A DNA stretch of 43,641 nt from a virus, in the IMG/VR virus record IMGVR_UViG_2199352024_000003, positions 1 to 43,641 of that record, one strand, 5' to 3'. The notes beneath the pieces were generated by a model, which saw nothing but the letters and a program-made list of their open reading frames with translations, was not told the origin of the DNA and made no database searches. The position numbers and the translations under genes were made by a program. Shown here piece after piece: positions 3,343-30,745 of the stretch (position 1 is the first letter of the stretch; the number at the start of each line of letters is the position of its first letter).

Positions 3343-3503
3343 TGACCAACTACCCTCACCGCAATGGACCAAACGACAAGGTGCACGTAGCTCAACCATG
3401 TCGCATTTGCACCATACCACTCAAGCTAAGCCATATCACCAAAGTTAATGACGTATGGGTTCACACTCACTGCCTAGAAAGTGAGAGTGCAAATGCTAAA
3501 TAA
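3342..3503 (+). CDS. small zinc-finger-like protein
   Basis: A 53-residue protein with a C-x2-C pair (PCRICT) and a later H-x-H-x-C group (VHTHC), consistent with one bound zinc ion. It starts by TAATG coupling. Its last residues (LESESANAK) echo the repeated LESENA ending. Confidence 0.55.
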   Translation: MTNYPHRNGPNDKVHVAQPCRICTIPLKLSHITKVNDVWVHTHCLESESANAK

Positions 3504-3642
3504 CTCCGAAACCTATCAAGAACTGTATTGGGACTATATAGACAATTTTCCTACAGTATCCGCTTGGATCGATTACTACAACCTACCCGCAAACGAGGCC
3601 GGATTTATCTTAGCGATTTACAAAGGCAGCGTTAGACCATGA
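3493..3642 (+). CDS. small protein, unknown function
   Basis: A 49-residue aromatic, acidic protein (MLNNSETYQELYWDYIDNF...) overlapping the previous gene by 11 nt, with AAAGTGAGAG as ribosome site. The fold SAWIDYYNLPANEAGFILAI suggests a small helical domain. No family recognised. Confidence 0.55.
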   Translation: MLNNSETYQELYWDYIDNFPTVSAWIDYYNLPANEAGFILAIYKGSVRP

Positions 3643-3842
3643 GCCCCGAGCAAGCCTTACATCAAGCCTACCGCCATACAGCGGTCTTTAGCATCATAAT
3701 ACTCACGCTCATTCTACTCATACCACACAATACCCAATGCTACTTTCCACCACTACATACGCCACAAGGCTACCGCTGTTGGTGGGAACAGAACAACGCT
3801 ATGCCCAACCACTTAGAGAAAATCTGCGAAAGGGTTAAATAA
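3639..3842 (+). CDS. small single-span membrane protein
   Basis: A 67-residue protein with one clear membrane segment (about 15-32, VFSIIILTLILLIP) and two cysteines in the C-terminal part. It couples to its neighbours by ATGA at the start and TAATG at the end. A membrane role is likely; function is unknown. Confidence 0.6.
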   Translation: MSPEQALHQAYRHTAVFSIIILTLILLIPHNTQCYFPPLHTPQGYRCWWEQNNAMPNHLEKICERVK

Positions 3843-3964
3843 TGTCCTACCTTTACGACTCATTACCACACTACGATTACGACTCTTACCCAGAGCACGA
3901 GGCACATAAGGATTACCTAGAAGCGCTAGGCTACTACGACGAACAGGAGGATGGTGAACTATGA
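3842..3964 (+). CDS. Tyr/Asp/Glu-rich small protein
   Basis: A 40-residue, strongly acidic, tyrosine-rich protein (MSYLYDSLPHYDYDSYPEH...). Acidic mimic-like composition is common among small phage inhibitors, but no specific target can be inferred. Its end carries the CAGGAGG ribosome site of the next gene. Confidence 0.5.
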   Translation: MSYLYDSLPHYDYDSYPEHEAHKDYLEALGYYDEQEDGEL

Positions 3965-4155
3965 GCACAATAGCGGCAGTACGAAACGGATCAGGCTTAG
4001 ACTTTAATCGCTACGTTCATAAAGTCTTTAAAGACCTAGACTCTGCGCACACTTGGGAGAATAGACAACCTAAGAATTGGACCATAAGAGTATTCGATGC
4101 CAAGCTACGTACAGGTGACGTAGTTCCACCCAACACTGAAAGTAGGGTGATATGA
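3961..4155 (+). CDS. small protein, unknown function
   Basis: A 64-residue mildly basic protein (MSTIAAVRNGSGLDFNRYV...) with a strong CAGGAGGATGG ribosome site and ATGA coupling. No recognised domain. Confidence 0.6.
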   Translation: MSTIAAVRNGSGLDFNRYVHKVFKDLDSAHTWENRQPKNWTIRVFDAKLRTGDVVPPNTESRVI

Positions 4156-4301
4156 GTACCAGATACGACATAACAAGTGATCCTAGATATGTTGAGCCTA
4201 CAGATCATTGCCACCCTATATGGTGTGACACTTGTGACTTATTTGATGATGACGACTGGTGCCCATGTTGTGCCAACTTTGTAGGCAGTGAGACCAAATG
4301 A
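4152..4301 (+). CDS. small zinc-ribbon-like protein
   Basis: A 49-residue protein with CDTC and CPCC pairs separated by an Asp-rich stretch, a likely zinc ribbon. It ends FVGSETK, with TGA overlapping the next ATG. Confidence 0.55.
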   Translation: MSTRYDITSDPRYVEPTDHCHPIWCDTCDLFDDDDWCPCCANFVGSETK

Positions 4302-4483
4302 GCATACTTGGTTTAATCGAAATGGATATTCGCAACGAATTGTTACAAGATAGAACCTATAATTGGGAGTCTCTTAACTCTATTATGGCTAAAATTATGC
4401 CACTTATATCGGATCGCATAGGTCATGAGTGTACGCATAACGCTAATCAAGACTGCTCGCACCGGGACCCGTATCAGACATGA
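4298..4483 (+). CDS. small protein, unknown function
   Basis: A 61-residue protein (MSILGLIEMDIRNELLQDR...) with a helical N-terminal half and a His/Cys-rich end (GHECTHNANQDCSH) that could bind a metal. Coupled on both sides by ATGA overlaps. Confidence 0.55.
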   Translation: MSILGLIEMDIRNELLQDRTYNWESLNSIMAKIMPLISDRIGHECTHNANQDCSHRDPYQT

Positions 4484-5723: not shown

Positions 5724-5786
5724 AGCGGGGCAGAGCAGGCAGATAAGTTGCGAAGATACATCCTGCTAGGATCTCGCACCCCCGCT
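5724..5786 (+). ncRNA. nested stem-loop RNA or leader structure
   Basis: Two nested perfect stems are visible: AGCGGGG (5724-5730) with CCCCGCT (5780-5786), and inside it AGCAGG (5734-5739) with CCTGCT (5762-5767), closing a 22-nt loop. It ends 20 nt before the start of the next gene, whose ribosome site TAGGAGAG follows an AT-rich spacer. It may be a structured leader, a protein-binding element or a small RNA. Confidence 0.4.
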
Positions 5787-5805
5787 TAATTTAATAGGAG
5801 AGCAA

Positions 5806-6024
5806 GTGAAACCAAGCGACGATCAACTTTACGAGGACTACTTAGACGCTGTTAATGCGGCATGGAAACTCTTTGCTGAGTATAAGAGTGACTTCATATC
5901 TGACTTAGAGAAACACTCCTTGCCGCACTTTCTCTTTGTCCTTTGCGAAGATCCGAGATTCCGTAGCTTTATGGAGCACACTTGGGAGCAGCAAGACTTA
6001 CGCATCATGGAAGGCCGGAAATGA
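5806..6024 (+). CDS. acidic protein, unknown function
   Basis: A 72-residue helical protein (MKPSDDQLYEDYLDAVNAA...). GTG start 6 nt after TAGGAGAG, preceded by the stem-loop region, so it begins a new block of the array. No family recognised. Confidence 0.65.
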   Translation: MKPSDDQLYEDYLDAVNAAWKLFAEYKSDFISDLEKHSLPHFLFVLCEDPRFRSFMEHTWEQQDLRIMEGRK

Positions 6025-6263
6025 CACTCACGAACGCAGAACTAGCCGACAGGATCAAGAGTTATACCACTTGGGATAGAACGGGAGAAATCTACACGGC
6101 GCTAGTCGAACTCCGTCAATGGCGGGAGTTGGGGCGGGAGCTTTTGCAAGTGCACCAACCAACTGGGTCTGGTCGCCTATGTGTTTATTGTGGCGCTGCT
6201 GACGGAGATTACCCATGCGTAACAGCTCAAGAGGTCCGCACACTTCTCGGAGATGAAGGGTGA
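6021..6263 (+). CDS. small protein with Cys-containing C-terminal part
   Basis: An 80-residue protein starting MTLTNAELADRI at the ATGA overlap. The N-terminal half is helical; the end has CVYCGAADGDYPC, a probable zinc-binding group of the kind found in small phage proteins whose first half is a coiled coil. A start at 5982 would run through the upstream gene. Confidence 0.6.
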   Translation: MTLTNAELADRIKSYTTWDRTGEIYTALVELRQWRELGRELLQVHQPTGSGRLCVYCGAADGDYPCVTAQEVRTLLGDEG

Positions 6264-6448
6264 TGGATTGGCAAGCGCTGGTGACTTGCATTTCGTGTGG
6301 TCATCAACATCATGTGAAAAACGGCAAGTGGGGGCGGTGCGAAATGTCGCTTGTCACGCTGGCCAAATGCCAATGCAAAAAGCTGCACCCAGATCCAGTG
6401 TTTCGCAAGTTTGCCGACGCACCTACCAAAGGAACGGACGAACAGTGA
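6260..6448 (+). CDS. small zinc-finger-like protein
   Basis: 61-62 residues with C-x2-C (CISC), then a Cys in RCEM and C-x-C (KCQCKK). The GTG at 6260 overlaps the previous TGA, and the next codon is an ATG that could serve equally. Confidence 0.55.
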   Translation: MMDWQALVTCISCGHQHHVKNGKWGRCEMSLVTLAKCQCKKLHPDPVFRKFADAPTKGTDEQ

Positions 6449-8152: not shown

Positions 8153-9385
8153 ATGTCTGACCTATCCACAGACCGACGATCTACCGCAGCCCCTACGGGA
8201 TATGCCACCCACGATATGTACTTTGCCTCCCACTTTTATCAAGGAGGCCGCCGTAACTTCTTCCTTGATCTGTCTATCCCGCAGCTCCTCGCCACGATCA
8301 ACCAACCCGACCCCCTCGTGCTCATTGAGGGCAACCGCCAGATTACGCTCTCGCACGCCCAGGGCTTTGCGGACTACATTCTTTCTCGACCGGACTGGGT
8401 TTGCCCCATGATCCTACTCCGAGCCCCCACAGGGGAGTTTGAGTTTCGCAGTACCACCCGAGCCGACGAGTCCGGGGCAGGCACCGACTTCGGCATCCTC
8501 TCCGTCCCGAAGTACGCCCGAACACAAATTAACATTATTGACGGGCAGCACCGCATCCTCGGATTCCACCTTGCTTGGACGCAGCTAGAGGATCAAATTC
8601 AGAAGGCCAGAGCACACCTTGCCCGAGCTAAGAAGGACCAGCCCGACGTTCATGTTCTAATAAAATCCGCAGAGAAGCACCTAGACATGCTCCTAAAGCG
8701 CCGACAGACCCTTACCGAGCAGCGAGTCGGCCTCCAGATTGTCATCACGGACGACCCTAAGGAATACAAACAGATATTTGTTGACATTGCGGATAACGCC
8801 AAGGGTATTCCGAAGGCTGTCTCCGTAGGGTTTGACAGTCACAAGGTTGTTTACCGGGCTTTTGCCGCTGTAGCCGAACACCCACTTCTTAAGGACAGGG
8901 TTAACAAGAACTCAGACAGGGCGATAAAGAACAGCCCCTACCTACTCGGAGCGGCGCACGTTGCCAACATTATCCGCTGCATTGAAGTAGGGTCGGGACG
9001 CATAAGCCGAGTGCAGGAATTAGAGTTAAAGGATGCAGATGTTGTTAAGAATTCGCTCGAATTCTTTAACGTTATTACCGCAGCATTTCCTAACCTTAAA
9101 AAGGTAGAGCAGGGCATTCTTTCTCCCGAAGAATTGCGCCAGCAAAACCTCCTCGGATCCGTCACAATGCTGCGAGTTCTTGCCCGAGTATTTCACGATT
9201 TGCGGGAGGAAGGTCTCGGCCTCTCCGATATCCTCGCCCACTTCGAAGGCCTTGCTCCGCTCATGCCTCTGCCCCTACAAGACTTCTGGCTTACCACCGG
9301 AGTCTTCCAACCCGGAGGCACAGCACCCGGATCCGCAGCCGGAGATGTCAACCGCCTCACTGACGCAATAAAGGCCAAGATTTGA
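8153..9385 (+). CDS. DGQHR-domain (DndB-like) protein
   Basis: A 410-residue protein with the signature IDGQHR at 129-134, the hallmark of the DndB family and related DGQHR proteins. DndB is known as the repressor of the phosphorothioate DNA-modification operon, and stand-alone homologues occur in phages and islands with unclear roles. A long helical middle (150-190) and a basic stretch follow. AAGGAGCACCCCA precedes the ATG. The stop codon overlaps the left attP direct repeat. No dnd modification genes are present, so interference with a host Dnd or Ssp-type system is only a hypothesis. Confidence 0.75.
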   Translation: MSDLSTDRRSTAAPTGYATHDMYFASHFYQGGRRNFFLDLSIPQLLATINQPDPLVLIEGNRQITLSHAQGFADYILSRPDWVCPMILLRAPTGEFEFRSTTRADESGAGTDFGILSVPKYARTQINIIDGQHRILGFHLAWTQLEDQIQKARAHLARAKKDQPDVHVLIKSAEKHLDMLLKRRQTLTEQRVGLQIVITDDPKEYKQIFVDIADNAKGIPKAVSVGFDSHKVVYRAFAAVAEHPLLKDRVNKNSDRAIKNSPYLLGAAHVANIIRCIEVGSGRISRVQELELKDADVVKNSLEFFNVITAAFPNLKKVEQGILSPEELRQQNLLGSVTMLRVLARVFHDLREEGLGLSDILAHFEGLAPLMPLPLQDFWLTTGVFQPGGTAPGSAAGDVNRLTDAIKAKI

Positions 9386-9573: not shown

Positions 9574-9759
9574 ATGCCATCTGACCCCCAGATTGACCCC
9601 CACCGTGATTTTGCGAACGAGTACGAGCTTGCACATCTTGACGACTTCCTTCCGGGGAGCAAGAGACACACTTACCGAGACTTACGAGAGGCAAGAGCGA
9701 AGCACATTAGGGCGCACTATGAGATCATGCTTCGGGAAACAACAGAGCCGTCCGAATAG
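9574..9759 (+). CDS. small charged protein, unknown function
   Basis: A 61-residue protein (MPSDPQIDPHRDFANEYEL...) with AAAAGGAGCC before the ATG. Its first residues are encoded by the right attP repeat. The body is helical and highly charged. The last 35 nt overlap the convergent integrase 3' end. It may be real or a by-product of the att region. Confidence 0.4.
   Translation: MPSDPQIDPHRDFANEYELAHLDDFLPGSKRHTYRDLREARAKHIRAHYEIMLRETTEPSE
9582..9603 (+). repeat. attP-flanking direct repeat, right copy
   Basis: Exact copy of 9383-9404, 199 bp away, on the integrase side of the attP core. Confidence 0.65.
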
Positions 9760-10768
9760 TCGGCTCCACGTTGTGCCGGTAGTGTTGCTCTAACATGCGG
9801 GTGCTTCCCTGGCCGAGGAGATCAGCGATCTCGATCAACGGAACATGTGCAGCGGAGAGAAGAGAAGCGCAGGAGTGGCGAAGTTCATAAGGAGTCCAGA
9901 TCCCCAGCCCCGCTTTCTCTGTCAACTCCGCAAACTCACGTCTAAGGTTGTTCTTGTCCCACATCCCTCCCACCGAAGTCGGGAAGACCAAATCTCCGTA
10001 GCGCTCAATGCCCTTAAGCTCATCTACAACGACCGCAGGCATAGCTAATGTTCGTTGTGATCGTTTTGTTTTAAGAGGGCCGCTCCGAGATACCCGAATC
10101 CTTAAAACGCCGCCTACGAGGTCAACATCCTTCCAACGCAGACCGGCTAACTCTCCCGGACGCAGCCCGAGATACAAACCGGTAAGAATAAGCGGCCGAA
10201 GCCGGTGACCCTCGCTGATCTCCAGAAGGGTCTCGGCTTGCTCCCGAGTAAGAGATCGCCGAACCCGAACCGTCCCCGACGGAGTGTCAGCCAACATAGC
10301 GACGTTTTGATAAACAATGCCACGGCGCTGTGCATGCCGAAGCGCCTTCGTAAGGGTGCTGTGTATCCGAGCCCGACTACTTCGGCTTTCAACTGAGAGC
10401 CCCCGTAGAAACGTCTCGACGTCAGTCACGGAAAGATCCCTAATCTTTCGGTGCCCCAAGGAATCTATGATCTTATCCACCGCCCACGCATAATTGTCCA
10501 GTGTTGCTTTGCGCAGCCCTGAGGCGGCGAGGTCTTCCTTCAGCCAGCGCTCAAGGTATTTCTTGACAGTAACATCGTTCTGTGATAACGGACGGCCCTC
10601 ATCTATTAAGCGTAGGGCAAGTCTTAACTGCGTTAAGACTTCCTTCTGCGTGTGCGCATATATGCTTACAGGCTTTCCGTTCAGCCGGTAGCGGGCCTCC
10701 CAGCGCCCGTCCGACCTCTTTTTAACTGTTCCCTCTCCGTTGCCTCTCATAGCGGCGGGATTATACAC
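9725..10768 (-). CDS. int: tyrosine recombinase integrase
   Basis: A 347-residue site-specific integrase. It has an N-terminal arm-binding domain (GEGTVKKRSDGRWEARYR), a SAM-like core-binding domain (about 60-150) and a catalytic domain with Arg in LGLRPGELAGLRW, the His-x-x-Arg box ELRHSCASLL and the nucleophile Tyr in LEQHYRHN. The GTG at 10768 overlaps the excisionase stop by one base. An ATG seven codons later is the alternative start. It is transcribed towards attP and should act on the tRNA-Val(GAC) site. Confidence 0.95.
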   Translation of the reverse strand: MYNPAAMRGNGEGTVKKRSDGRWEARYRLNGKPVSIYAHTQKEVLTQLRLALRLIDEGRPLSQNDVTVKKYLERWLKEDLAASGLRKATLDNYAWAVDKIIDSLGHRKIRDLSVTDVETFLRGLSVESRSSRARIHSTLTKALRHAQRRGIVYQNVAMLADTPSGTVRVRRSLTREQAETLLEISEGHRLRPLILTGLYLGLRPGELAGLRWKDVDLVGGVLRIRVSRSGPLKTKRSQRTLAMPAVVVDELKGIERYGDLVFPTSVGGMWDKNNLRREFAELTEKAGLGIWTPYELRHSCASLLSAAHVPLIEIADLLGQGSTRMLEQHYRHNVEPTIRTALLFPEA

Positions 10769-26556: not shown

Positions 26557-27012
26557 GTGAAACAGACATTCTTTAAGACGCAGAGCACTAGACCGTCTAA
26601 GTTCTTCTACAAAGTTCATGATGTGAACCATAAACACCCGTATTTGAGAAAAACCTGTCTCACTTGCGGTGTAAGCAAGATGATGCAAAAGCGAGCGACA
26701 GCTCAATTTTGCTCAATTGCATGCGGGAAAATTGGAAGGCTCAATCCTAATTTTAATGCAGACCCTAATAGTCCTTACAAAACAAAATCAAGGTCTGAGA
26801 TGGTTCGATACCACGAATTAGTTTATTTACATCGAGGAGCACCCGAACATTGTGTACACTGTGGCACTACCGAAAATCGCATGTACCACTGGGCTAACGT
26901 TTCTGGGAACTACGCAAACGTTAACGACTTTATTCGTCTTTGCGTCCCGTGCCACTCTGCTTTCGACAGAACAAAACGCCCTACCTCTGTTGAATTGTCT
27001 TCAATCCGGTAA
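26557..27012 (+). CDS. HNH endonuclease
   Basis: A 151-residue protein. N-terminal zinc finger (CLTCGV...FCSIACG) and a C-terminal HNH core (CVHCGTTENRMYHWANVSGN...LCVPCHSAFD), where Trp-Ala-Asn replaces the usual His-x-Asn spacing seen in phage HNH proteins. GGAGGTCAG precedes the GTG. It is the last rightward gene. Its final 32 nt overlap the 3' end of the convergent virion gene. Confidence 0.85.
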   Translation: MKQTFFKTQSTRPSKFFYKVHDVNHKHPYLRKTCLTCGVSKMMQKRATAQFCSIACGKIGRLNPNFNADPNSPYKTKSRSEMVRYHELVYLHRGAPEHCVHCGTTENRMYHWANVSGNYANVNDFIRLCVPCHSAFDRTKRPTSVELSSIR

Positions 27013-30000
27013 GTGCTCTGAGCAGTCTTTGTCGTTTTGTTCCGCCCGAACTCTCTGAAATGAGACCCTTCCCTCGACCAACAACAGGAAGCAATGACGA
27101 AGCGATACGCTCTGCCCTCGCCTGCGTCCCACCCTTCAACGCATTTCCTGTGAAGGTACTATGTCCTGTCGCTTCGCTTGCTAGTGAATTAAGAATCGAA
27201 GGAATAGGCCCTCCCACGGTACCGAGAGTCTTAGCATTAAAGTCTCGCCAGCTCGTAGGGTGAAGAGGTGCAGTGGCCTGCTCCGCAGCAGAAATAGCAC
27301 TGTCCGGGCTTGTGAGCACCTGCCTATCCGATTGGCCTGTAAGAAGCCTAGCGATATTTGCCGGAAGCACACGACCATCTTGTAGATACTCCGGCGCACT
27401 CTGATCAGGAGAAGACATAGACCCCTCAATGATGTGCTGCCTCATTGCGTACTTTCCGGGGTTCTTAAATAATTGCTCGACCTGAAGGGGTGTGTTCTTA
27501 CGCATGAAGGTGTTGCCTGTGGGCATTACCAGCCCATCATGCCTCACAACCCAAGTTCCGGTTGGAGTTCGTGGGCACCATACCTGTCCTTTGAATTGAG
27601 ATTTTGTTAGGTTGTTGAATAGGTTGAAACCTTGCTGAGTGCTTACATATAGATTGGAAGTCTTACGACGAGCAGTGCAGATGCGGGCCGACCGTCCAGT
27701 CATATAAGTTAAAATCTGAAAAGCGTCTAGGACAGGCCCAGGCATTTGCGTGAAGCATTGTTGTCCCCGGGAAGACGTAGACCCCTCAGCGTCAAACATT
27801 GCTTGCCACATCGCTTCGGCGGATTCTCTGGACAACTGAGTGACTAGAGATGGTAAGTCACTCTTGTCATGGTAGTGCTTGGTGAGCGACTTTTTATCTT
27901 CTAATGAAACTGGAACAGCTACAACTCCCGTGGTGGGGTGGGGCTTATGGGGGGAAGTCCCTAATAAGTCAATGATCTGAGCAAGGAATTTTTTAGGGGA
28001 CTGATAGACAACCGCTTCCCAGTGGTTTTTCCTCCACCTACCATGACCATCTGTGACTACCCAACCCAAGATTGCAGCCAAGCGGGGGTCTAATAGGCTG
28101 TTGGACTCCTCAAATTCTCCCCTAAATGGGACCCGATCAGATGTCAAGAACTCTTGCGCCTCTTTAATAGTGCCGGTTTGTGTAGGCCACCTATGATTGG
28201 GTGTGTATGAAAGGCTTAGTCCACCTGTGCGAGAGGTCGTCCAAAGCTCACCGTCATAATCGAAAATCGCCACTTCCTGGATGGGCTCCCACCTCATAAC
28301 GTGTGTCTCAGGGTCGAAAACCATAACCGGCTCGTTCAAAACTAGCTGATCGAAAGTTTTCCAGCCTCTCTTAGTTAAAATTTCATGGTCGGTCGGGACA
28401 CAATAAAATGGGATAACTTTCCCAAAGGTCTTCTTCTCAAACTCCGTCAAATCTCCATAGTCAAAGAGGTACTTCTTAACGGACTCAGCAGCAGCCTTTG
28501 AGCTGCCCAGCTCCTCACGTTTTGCAATGAAGTGGGCAAGGCGGGCATTGTCTTCGACAATCTGGTTTCCCTTACCACCGAGTTCTGCGACCTTGCCATG
28601 ATGCGTCAGCTGCTTGCCTATCGCCTTAGCCTTCCCGCCCGTGCTGGCCTCACCAAAAGCACCTTTGAAAGTCTTCCCACCTTCTCCCTTAAGAATGTCA
28701 TGTTGAAAGAAAGAGGTCCCTAGAGCACCTGTGTCCCTAGCTTCCTTATAAATCCTGTAGTTCTTAGTCCCTAACTTGGCAGCGAGAGCTTGCTCCAATT
28801 TCGTAGGGTCAACTGTTTTATCTCGCAGGACTGACCGGACCTTCATTTGAATGCCGAGGGCATCCTTGTACACGACCGGGTTCGTGACTCCGGCAAGGTA
28901 GTTTAGGAACACATTACTCCGGGCATTTCGTGCAGTGAACGAGCCGCCTATCGGGATGATAGTTGCCCCCGACTTCCACATGCCGTTCCACTCTTTATAG
29001 AACTTACCTAATTTCGTCAACTCCTCACTGGAAGACGATATTGCGTGTGACTTTTCAAGATCATCTGCTATCTCTGTAGGAGCGTGGAACGTTCCCATAT
29101 CCCCGAGATTAACCGTCCTATACCCCGGAGGAATCTTTCCCTCCGAGACACCCTCAGCTGGGATGAGGATGTTCTTCCCCGTCCGCTCGTCCTTAAGACT
29201 TCCTATCTTATCGATATATTCTCGCTGAGCAGCCGTCTTTGCAGCTACCGTAGCGTCAGACAATGCCCCGACATAAGCCCCCTCGTGTAGGACCCTTTCT
29301 CCATCTTTAAGGAGCCCGGCCTGTTGTAGGCGAGGTGCAACTTTTTCGTTGATTTGTTGTGCCGTCAAGCCGGGGTACAGCTTCTGTAGATCTATGTTGC
29401 CTTTAGAGTCCTTCGCAGCATTAGCCGCATCCTCTCCGAGAGCCTGTGCAAACCTAACCGGATCCTTCTGCGCCTTAGCCCCCGCAGACGTCACAACCCG
29501 AGTCTGAGGCCCAACGGCCTTCTCAGTCCCGGCCAGAACGCCTTGCGCTGCTTGTGGAACTACCGCTGAGTCTTGGTGGATCTGCCGTACTGTGTCCGTA
29601 TATTCTGAGAGTTCAGGCCGTTCGGCTTTCAGGGCCTTTACGGCCCCTTCTCCGGCAGCAATAGCATTGCCGACCAGGCGGTTATCAGCCTCTGTGAGTC
29701 CTCCCGGCACTTTCCGAGCAGCAAGGTCAAGTGATCTCTTAGAGTTCTCTAACGCCACGTCCGCAGCGGTCTCTCGGGTCTTTTCAGCATCATTCATAAT
29801 GCCGCCGACTTCTTTGCCGAAGCGCTGCTCGTTCTTAGCTCCGGTGTGGAAGGCTTTAGCGAGAGTCTGTGCGGCCCCAGTTCCCTTTATTGCCCCCTCA
29901 GCTGCCCGTAGGCCCGTTTTCTCAAGGCCCCCCTCAATGGTAGACCCCTTTATCAAATTAACGCCTACAGACGTTCCTGGGATGTGTACGCCGAGCCCGC

Positions 30001-30745
30001 CTTGTCCACGAGTCTCCAATGCCCGCATTGTGCGGTCGGCAAAACGATTTGCTCCCTCCTCGACCCCGCCTTTTGCCTCCCCCCTCACGACCTCGCCCAG
30101 AGTTCGGCGGGGCGTTATTCCCCCCTCTGTAGCGTGCTCAACCAAGGACTTTCGAACTGCTGCCTTTTCACCCGCCGAAAGCCCTTTTTTCACGCCTTGT
30201 TGTGCGATGTTCTCCGCAACATCCTTACCGAGACTTTTACTGGCAATCTGAAGGCCCTCTTTAGCAACATCTCCTGTTCCTAAGGTTGCGTAGGTAAGAG
30301 GGTCTGTAGCGATTGATCCGAGAATATCCTCGGCGTGCTGCAGTATTCCGTGTGTCTGAACATCCCGGCCTCCGAGGGCCTGTCTAAAAGTGAGATGCTC
30401 TTTGCCGAGTGCTCCTCGTGCGAACCCTGAGGCTGCCCCTCCTATAGCGGCAGCAACACCTTTGTCCCTGCCCTCAGCTCCACCACGACCAGCGGACAGC
30501 ACAGCCTCTCCCGGGCGGCTGATAATGTCACCTACAATAGAAGCACCCTTAAGAAGCCCGTGTACACCGGGAGCGGAAAGAATCTTTTGCCCTACGGATT
30601 TAGATTTGCCGGGCTCAGAGCTGCCGCTTACCAAATCTGCTAAGGAACTGTTGCCCGTTGAAGATGGAACTTCGGAGTCTAAAGATTTAGCCTTAGGCTT
30701 AGTTGATCCGCCGCCTACCAAACTAGAAAGAGAGTCGTTAGCCAT
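26981..30745 (-). CDS. large internal virion protein precursor with intein
   Basis: 1254 residues as translated, 957 after intein removal (C782-N1078). The N-terminal third is Gly/Ala/Lys-rich with amphipathic segments (LLKGASIVGDIISRPGEAVL). The C-terminal part has the extein motif DYGDLTEFEKKTFGKVIPFY / TFMRKNTPLQVEQL, shared by large virion proteins of many podoviruses that form ejected or tail-inner structures. It is the last gene of the leftward module. The ATG at 30745 overlaps the stop of the previous gene. Function is inferred from size, position and this motif. Confidence 0.85.
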   Translation of the reverse strand: MANDSLSSLVGGGSTKPKAKSLDSEVPSSTGNSSLADLVSGSSEPGKSKSVGQKILSAPGVHGLLKGASIVGDIISRPGEAVLSAGRGGAEGRDKGVAAAIGGAASGFARGALGKEHLTFRQALGGRDVQTHGILQHAEDILGSIATDPLTYATLGTGDVAKEGLQIASKSLGKDVAENIAQQGVKKGLSAGEKAAVRKSLVEHATEGGITPRRTLGEVVRGEAKGGVEEGANRFADRTMRALETRGQGGLGVHIPGTSVGVNLIKGSTIEGGLEKTGLRAAEGAIKGTGAAQTLAKAFHTGAKNEQRFGKEVGGIMNDAEKTRETAADVALENSKRSLDLAARKVPGGLTEADNRLVGNAIAAGEGAVKALKAERPELSEYTDTVRQIHQDSAVVPQAAQGVLAGTEKAVGPQTRVVTSAGAKAQKDPVRFAQALGEDAANAAKDSKGNIDLQKLYPGLTAQQINEKVAPRLQQAGLLKDGERVLHEGAYVGALSDATVAAKTAAQREYIDKIGSLKDERTGKNILIPAEGVSEGKIPPGYRTVNLGDMGTFHAPTEIADDLEKSHAISSSSEELTKLGKFYKEWNGMWKSGATIIPIGGSFTARNARSNVFLNYLAGVTNPVVYKDALGIQMKVRSVLRDKTVDPTKLEQALAAKLGTKNYRIYKEARDTGALGTSFFQHDILKGEGGKTFKGAFGEASTGGKAKAIGKQLTHHGKVAELGGKGNQIVEDNARLAHFIAKREELGSSKAAAESVKKYLFDYGDLTEFEKKTFGKVIPFYCVPTDHEILTKRGWKTFDQLVLNEPVMVFDPETHVMRWEPIQEVAIFDYDGELWTTSRTGGLSLSYTPNHRWPTQTGTIKEAQEFLTSDRVPFRGEFEESNSLLDPRLAAILGWVVTDGHGRWRKNHWEAVVYQSPKKFLAQIIDLLGTSPHKPHPTTGVVAVPVSLEDKKSLTKHYHDKSDLPSLVTQLSRESAEAMWQAMFDAEGSTSSRGQQCFTQMPGPVLDAFQILTYMTGRSARICTARRKTSNLYVSTQQGFNLFNNLTKSQFKGQVWCPRTPTGTWVVRHDGLVMPTGNTFMRKNTPLQVEQLFKNPGKYAMRQHIIEGSMSSPDQSAPEYLQDGRVLPANIARLLTGQSDRQVLTSPDSAISAAEQATAPLHPTSWRDFNAKTLGTVGGPIPSILNSLASEATGHSTFTGNALKGGTQARAERIASSLLPVVGRGKGLISESSGGTKRQRLLRALTGLKTIQQR
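27512..28402 (-). other. intein with LAGLIDADG homing endonuclease
   Basis: 297 residues, Cys782 to Asn1078 of the virion protein. Block A CVPTDHEILTKRGWKTFDQL, block B with TPNHR (the TxxH histidine), two endonuclease motifs LAAILGWVVTDGH and AMWQAMFDAEGS, block F VWCPRTPTGTWVVRHDG, and the end MPTGN followed by Thr+1. The residue before the last Asn is Gly instead of the usual His. The exteins join as IPFY-TFMRKN, a natural sequence for this protein family, which shows that the insertion is precise. Confidence 0.93.

Follow-up and report, generated by a model that had tools for sequence, protein, structure and literature searches.

The insert within the last late gene of the viral DNA analysed here is confirmed, by its sequence and its modelled fold, as a LAGLIDADG intein, and its relatives indicate that the intein family is mobile and has repeatedly invaded the motif in which it sits, the most conserved one of the host protein. 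The window, by which is meant the whole stretch of DNA that was analysed, is an IMG/VR virus record of 43,641 bases. The host open reading frame (ORF) occupies 26981–30745 on the minus strand and encodes a precursor of 1254 amino acids. Its N-extein (28403–30745, minus strand; 781 amino acids) ends in EKKTFGKVIPFY, and its C-extein (26984–27511, minus strand) has 176 amino acids. Translation of the minus strand reads FEKKTFGKVIPFY ^ CVPTDHEILTKRGW ... GQVWCPRTPTGTWVVRHDGLVMPTGN ^ TFMRKNTPLQ, where the caret marks a junction (FY^CVPTDHE and PTGN^TFMRKN). This reading places the insert exactly at 27512–28402 (minus strand; 297 amino acids from C1 to N297, residues 782–1078 of the ORF) and predicts a spliced product of 957 amino acids, in which the exteins would join as IPFY-TFMRKN.

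The earlier note had proposed an intein at these positions, with splicing blocks A, B and F and both LAGLIDADG motifs visible, and the present analysis agrees: the boundaries are exact, all of these elements are present, as are block G, the nucleophile, His B:10, the terminal Asn and Thr+1, and the segment matches both a family profile and the HINT and endonuclease fold. On the minus strand, Cys1 (28400–28402) is the N-terminal nucleophile of class-1 type. Block B, TPNHRW (28187–28204), contains Thr67 (B:7), His70 (B:10) and Trp72 (B:12, the W of the WCT triplet). The first LAGLIDADG motif, RLAAILGWVVTDGH (28043–28084), carries the acidic residue D118 and the second, AEAMWQAMFDAEGS (27779–27820), carries E206. 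Cys276 (27575–27577; F:4, the C of WCT) is a candidate alternative first nucleophile, block G (27512–27520) consists of Thr295 (G:5, the T of WCT), Gly296 (G:6) and the cyclising Asn297, and Thr+1 (27509–27511) would be the acceptor of the N-extein. In the first family set of 39 aligned inteins, the window's included, Cys1, His B:10, Cys F:4 and Asn G:7 are found in all 39, Thr B:7 in 37, Gly G:6 in 36, Thr G:5 in 35 and Trp B:12 in 27. Decayed class-3 inteins such as Arth_1007 are known (PMC3196547); in the window, however, the ORF is unbroken by any stop, the catalytic residues are intact and both acidic residues of the endonuclease are kept, and decay is considered highly unlikely.

Profile searches and structural modelling point the same way. 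A family HMM from which the window and one relative (L001) were left out scored the window intein at 196.4 bits over residues 1–297, against a best score of 7.9 bits for 2000 shuffles of its residues, and matched no other ORF of the window. A tblastn search with the intein matched 204 phage records; in 186 the match spans at least 80% of the intein, and identities are about 20–26% among the listed matches that span nearly all of it. Curated libraries hardly detect the intein: Pfam LAGLIDADG_3 gave 23.0 bits (cut-off 22.5) and TIGR01445 intein_Nterm 16.8 bits, which is under its cut-off of 24.5. The AlphaFold2 model, built from 28 sequences, has a mean pLDDT of 94.6 and a pTM of 0.92. The best 16 PDB matches of this model in Foldseek are all inteins with homing endonucleases, aligned over the whole length, and the top matches include TliVMA, PI-PfuI and PI-SceI, followed by I-DmoI. 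The HINT fold matches 7qsu, 1dq3 and PI-SceI with E-values of 4e-13 to 3e-8, and the two motifs with their acidic residues, together with the I-DmoI fold matches, mark the central part as a putative LAGLIDADG endonuclease.

Relatives of the host protein show the site both empty and occupied. A search with the joined exteins found 30 viral contigs that have the host protein without the insert. The invariance of FYTFMRKN in these contigs was dropped as evidence of conservation; the peptide was among the search seeds, so that the argument is circular. A second scan was therefore seeded only upstream of the site, with the stretch F[DN]Yx[DEA]LTx[FVI]E, and 80 of the 299 relatives found were kept. 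Seventy-seven of these are empty and read through an FYT[WFY]xRKN-like sequence, and three have an intein at precisely this junction (FY^CVP...TGN^TW(M/L)RKN); the three contigs amount to about two viruses, since L116 and L118 look like one, and all such counts, drawn from uncultured contigs, depend on the search seeds and on near-duplicates. Four published phage homologues found without the FYTFMRKN seed, those of Pf-WMP3, DS1, ct52p938 and ctEqG8, also read through; their sequences at the site are PFYTYVRK, PFYSWTRK, PFWGFMSN and PFASYALM. The window N-extein is itself homologous to that of the intein-free L003 (E 4e-122). Scanning viral sequences with the remainder of the N-extein gave no relatives, nor did scans of genome contigs. 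The claim that the exteins meet in a conserved motif is thus upheld, and the intein-free homologues with which comparison had been proposed do exist. They also bear on the reading that the segment is an ordinary inserted domain that stays in the mature virion protein. The continuous ORF is compatible with that reading, but homologues lack the segment precisely at its boundaries, the same element is found in portal, tape-measure, polymerase, methylase and phosphoesterase genes, and its fold is that of a HINT domain with an endonuclease; it is scarcely credible that the segment is such a domain.

The intein of the window belongs to a lineage tied to one motif. A scan with four inteins of this motif gave 35 loci, for which the junctions were read and a tree was built. 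The tree contains a group of 20 inteins, including that of the window, with support of 90/95, the first value being under its usual threshold of 95. Eighteen of the 20 sit in a P-F/Y-Y/W-T/S-W/F/Y motif: 13 at the position used in the window, four at two codons downstream (L001, L170, L179 and L180) and one at three codons downstream (L182). The +2 position needs at least three changes on the tree. The sister inteins of L176 and L179, which are 72% identical and lie in homologous exteins, have sites two codons apart (IPFY^SWLEVN and IPFYSW^SEIN, respectively). For TerL inteins, insertion sites that differ by one residue have been described before (PMC5050341). The inteins of the uncultured and unannotated IMG/VR contigs L168, L172, L171/L153 and L186, at the same site, and of L001 and L170, which unlike that of the window lie two codons downstream, are 33–51% identical to the window intein and interrupt its motif in homologous proteins. 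Exteins of the FY type share homology with those of the window, with profile E-values of 1e-3 to 1e-73 (1e-31 for L001). No homology was demonstrated between the PYW-type exteins (L173–L175 and others) and those of the FY family (HHalign probability 1%), and the two types agree only in the motif and its spacing. The PYW-type protein of L191 has a related intein (3501–4397) further downstream within the same protein. Another related intein, with a His-Asn end, lies in a large phage protein with a MuF_C domain at LF^TF (L048, 4001–4999). LF^TF looks like the motif FY^TF, but extein homology was not demonstrated and the intein groups elsewhere in the tree. The insertion site of the window may have been described earlier; the literature covered here was open-licence only.

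Inteins and exteins have separate histories in this group. The inteins of the window and L168 are 51% identical and their exteins 25%; conversely, L174 and L188 have exteins that are 66% identical and inteins that are 37% identical, at the same site and on different branches. Such decoupling in both directions is as expected from repeated horizontal invasion and replacement. The L174 and L188 inteins have Cys1 and Ser1, respectively, an apparent intein replacement. Intein-free relatives share 17–22 of the 24 central target bases with the joined site of the window, a level inflated to some degree because these relatives came from the seeded set. It is very likely that the window intein is mobile and probably functional, an assessment that extends to both the splicing and the homing parts of the scheme proposed below.

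The Gly-Asn ending was regarded in the earlier note as a less common variant that may slow splicing, and neither part of that view is supported. Gly-Asn is the normal end of this family (see the counts above). The intein in the RDF (gp51, a metallophosphoesterase) of phage Bethlehem, a homologue of which in phage Nhonho is among the family matches found, splices completely with its native Gly, and its G316H variant is only about 50% spliced after a time exceeding 5 h (PMC5050341). Penultimate His does aid Asn cyclisation in many inteins (PMC5222942), and Gly-Asn could on that basis be a tuning for slow splicing and late maturation of the virion protein; with Gly as the family norm, fast in the tested relative where His is slow, the slow-splicing idea is not supported and such tuning is given very little probability. 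This corrects the assumption that phage inteins lacking a penultimate His splice poorly.

The first nucleophile of the window intein is ambiguous, as Cys1 stands together with a complete class-3 WCT triplet (W72, C276 and T295). In a class-3 route Cys276 would attack the N-junction directly to give a block-F branched intermediate, and Cys1 would be dispensable. The triplet and the invariance of Cys F:4 in the first family set speak for this route, and so does the distance between Cys F:4 and Asn in the window, which at 21 residues equals that in proven class-3 inteins (calculated from the residue numbering of PMC5222942). Within the same clade, the L182 intein (3498–4397) has Glu1 and Ser B:7 and keeps the complete WCT triplet, Asn and Ser+1. 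It is placed inside the clade with PYW-type members (support 100/97), a gapless alignment of its exteins with those of relatives (profile E 2e-34) fixes its junctions, and no single base change would turn its Glu codon, GAA, into a Cys codon. The inteins of L188 and L189 have Ser1. Tori and Perler in 2011 reportedly described class-3 splicing of an intein with Ser1. Catera Gp206, a class-3 intein that splices (PMC3196547), appears to carry Ser1, as judged from a likely homologue in L059. Against the class-3 route, Cys1 is kept throughout the first set and Thr B:7, a class-1 trait, nearly so (37/39), and Cys F:4 and Trp B:12 can also be found in class-1 inteins (PMC4031507, PMC7891396), which makes class 1 the better guess. 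One survey defines class 3 by the absence of Cys1 (PMC7891396), so that the window intein is not filed as class 3, and L182 is without an N-terminal nucleophile. Taken together, a first attack by Cys1 is favoured with fair confidence over one by Cys276 directly, and the class-3 route is regarded as possible and rather unlikely.

A single origin has been proposed for class-3 inteins, by loss of the first nucleophile from a phage intein (PMC3196547). L182 looks like a natural class-3 derivative by its residues, and it may represent a second, local origin of class 3 or a dead intein; the sole class-3 representative in the tree is the RecB-like intein of L059, a long branch. A tentative reading, doubtful at present, is that the clade has two competent first nucleophiles and that L182, at the least, splices through the class-3 route after the loss of Cys1. 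If true, it would be an independent conversion of class 1 to class 3 within one lineage that homes to one virion-protein motif.

The preferred reading, with Cys1 as the probable first nucleophile, is built into the following scheme, in which we infer splicing, cutting and the order of attack from sequence. The precursor would fold its HINT domain, Cys1, or directly Cys276, would attack the N-junction, and the N-extein would be passed to Thr+1. Asn297 would then cyclise, and an O-N shift would give the seamless 957-residue protein. The endonuclease of the excised intein would cut intein-free alleles at a conserved TTYTAYACNTTYATGCG-type site, and the intein would spread by homing among diverged phages.

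The host protein probably belongs to the virion. The late genes of the window lie on the minus strand and include a P22-like portal, a head scaffold-like protein, a major head protein, tail proteins and a K1-lyase-type tailspike; the host ORF follows these as the last gene of the structural module. Outside the insert it has no match in Pfam or PHROG, and relatives of the protein have a weak PHROG tail match. Gene order and these matches suggest a phage virion or ejection protein. Additional domains occur in two relatives: L018 (1–8376) has a 2OG-Fe(II) oxygenase as well as a SLOG domain, and L012 (3019–8535) has a weak Lsr2-like match close to its C-terminus, which suggests that such proteins are polyvalent and perhaps injected. 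An HNH-endonuclease-like ORF (26557–27012, plus strand; PHROG 1271, E 1e-4) is convergent with the intein-bearing gene and overlaps its 3' end. In MW202795 (L045) the homologous gene is likewise overlapped tail to tail at its 3' end by an HNH gene (5744–6322). Elsewhere in the window a DndB-like protein (8153–9385, plus strand; PF14072, E 5e-27), of a family associated with DNA sulfur modification, adjoins a tyrosine integrase gene (9725–10768, minus strand), and the phage is possibly temperate. The open ORF at the right end runs in frame over the joined ends (1/43641), with a start about 16 codons upstream, and no terminal repeat is present at the ends; the record is possibly a complete genome that is circularly permuted.

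Several known inteins resemble that of the window. The Bethlehem gp51 intein shares LAGLIDADG motifs, Cys1, Cys F:4 and the Thr-Gly-Asn end (PMC5050341), but is only about 25% identical and has Val at B:12; its host is a phosphoesterase and its splicing was measured, whereas that of the window intein is predicted. The class-3 inteins MP-Be DnaB, Mch DnaB1 and Catera Gp206 share Trp B:12, Cys F:4 and Thr G:5 (PMC3196547, PMC7664689), as well as the Cys-to-Asn spacing and Ser/Thr+1; unlike them, the window intein keeps Cys1, has Thr B:7 and has Gly rather than His at G:6. Portal-protein inteins of mycobacteriophages and of Gordonia phage Woes likewise lie in a phage structural protein, and that of Woes has the same set of Cys1, WCT and Gly-Asn, but they differ in host gene, site and tree branch. 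Inteins in mycobacteriophage portal proteins had been listed before (PMC5050341), homologous inteins occur in portal and tape-measure genes, and many viral contigs have an intein in the same motif as the window. The earlier view that a structural protein is a less usual host is weakened to that extent, with the structural assignment itself kept as probable, and the window intein is ordinary in kind. Its relatives are of use as a natural series, in which a single motif is interrupted at three neighbouring positions and position 1 is Cys, Ser or Glu; this series makes directly testable both the origin of class-3 from class-1 inteins and the shift of an insertion point by a few codons.
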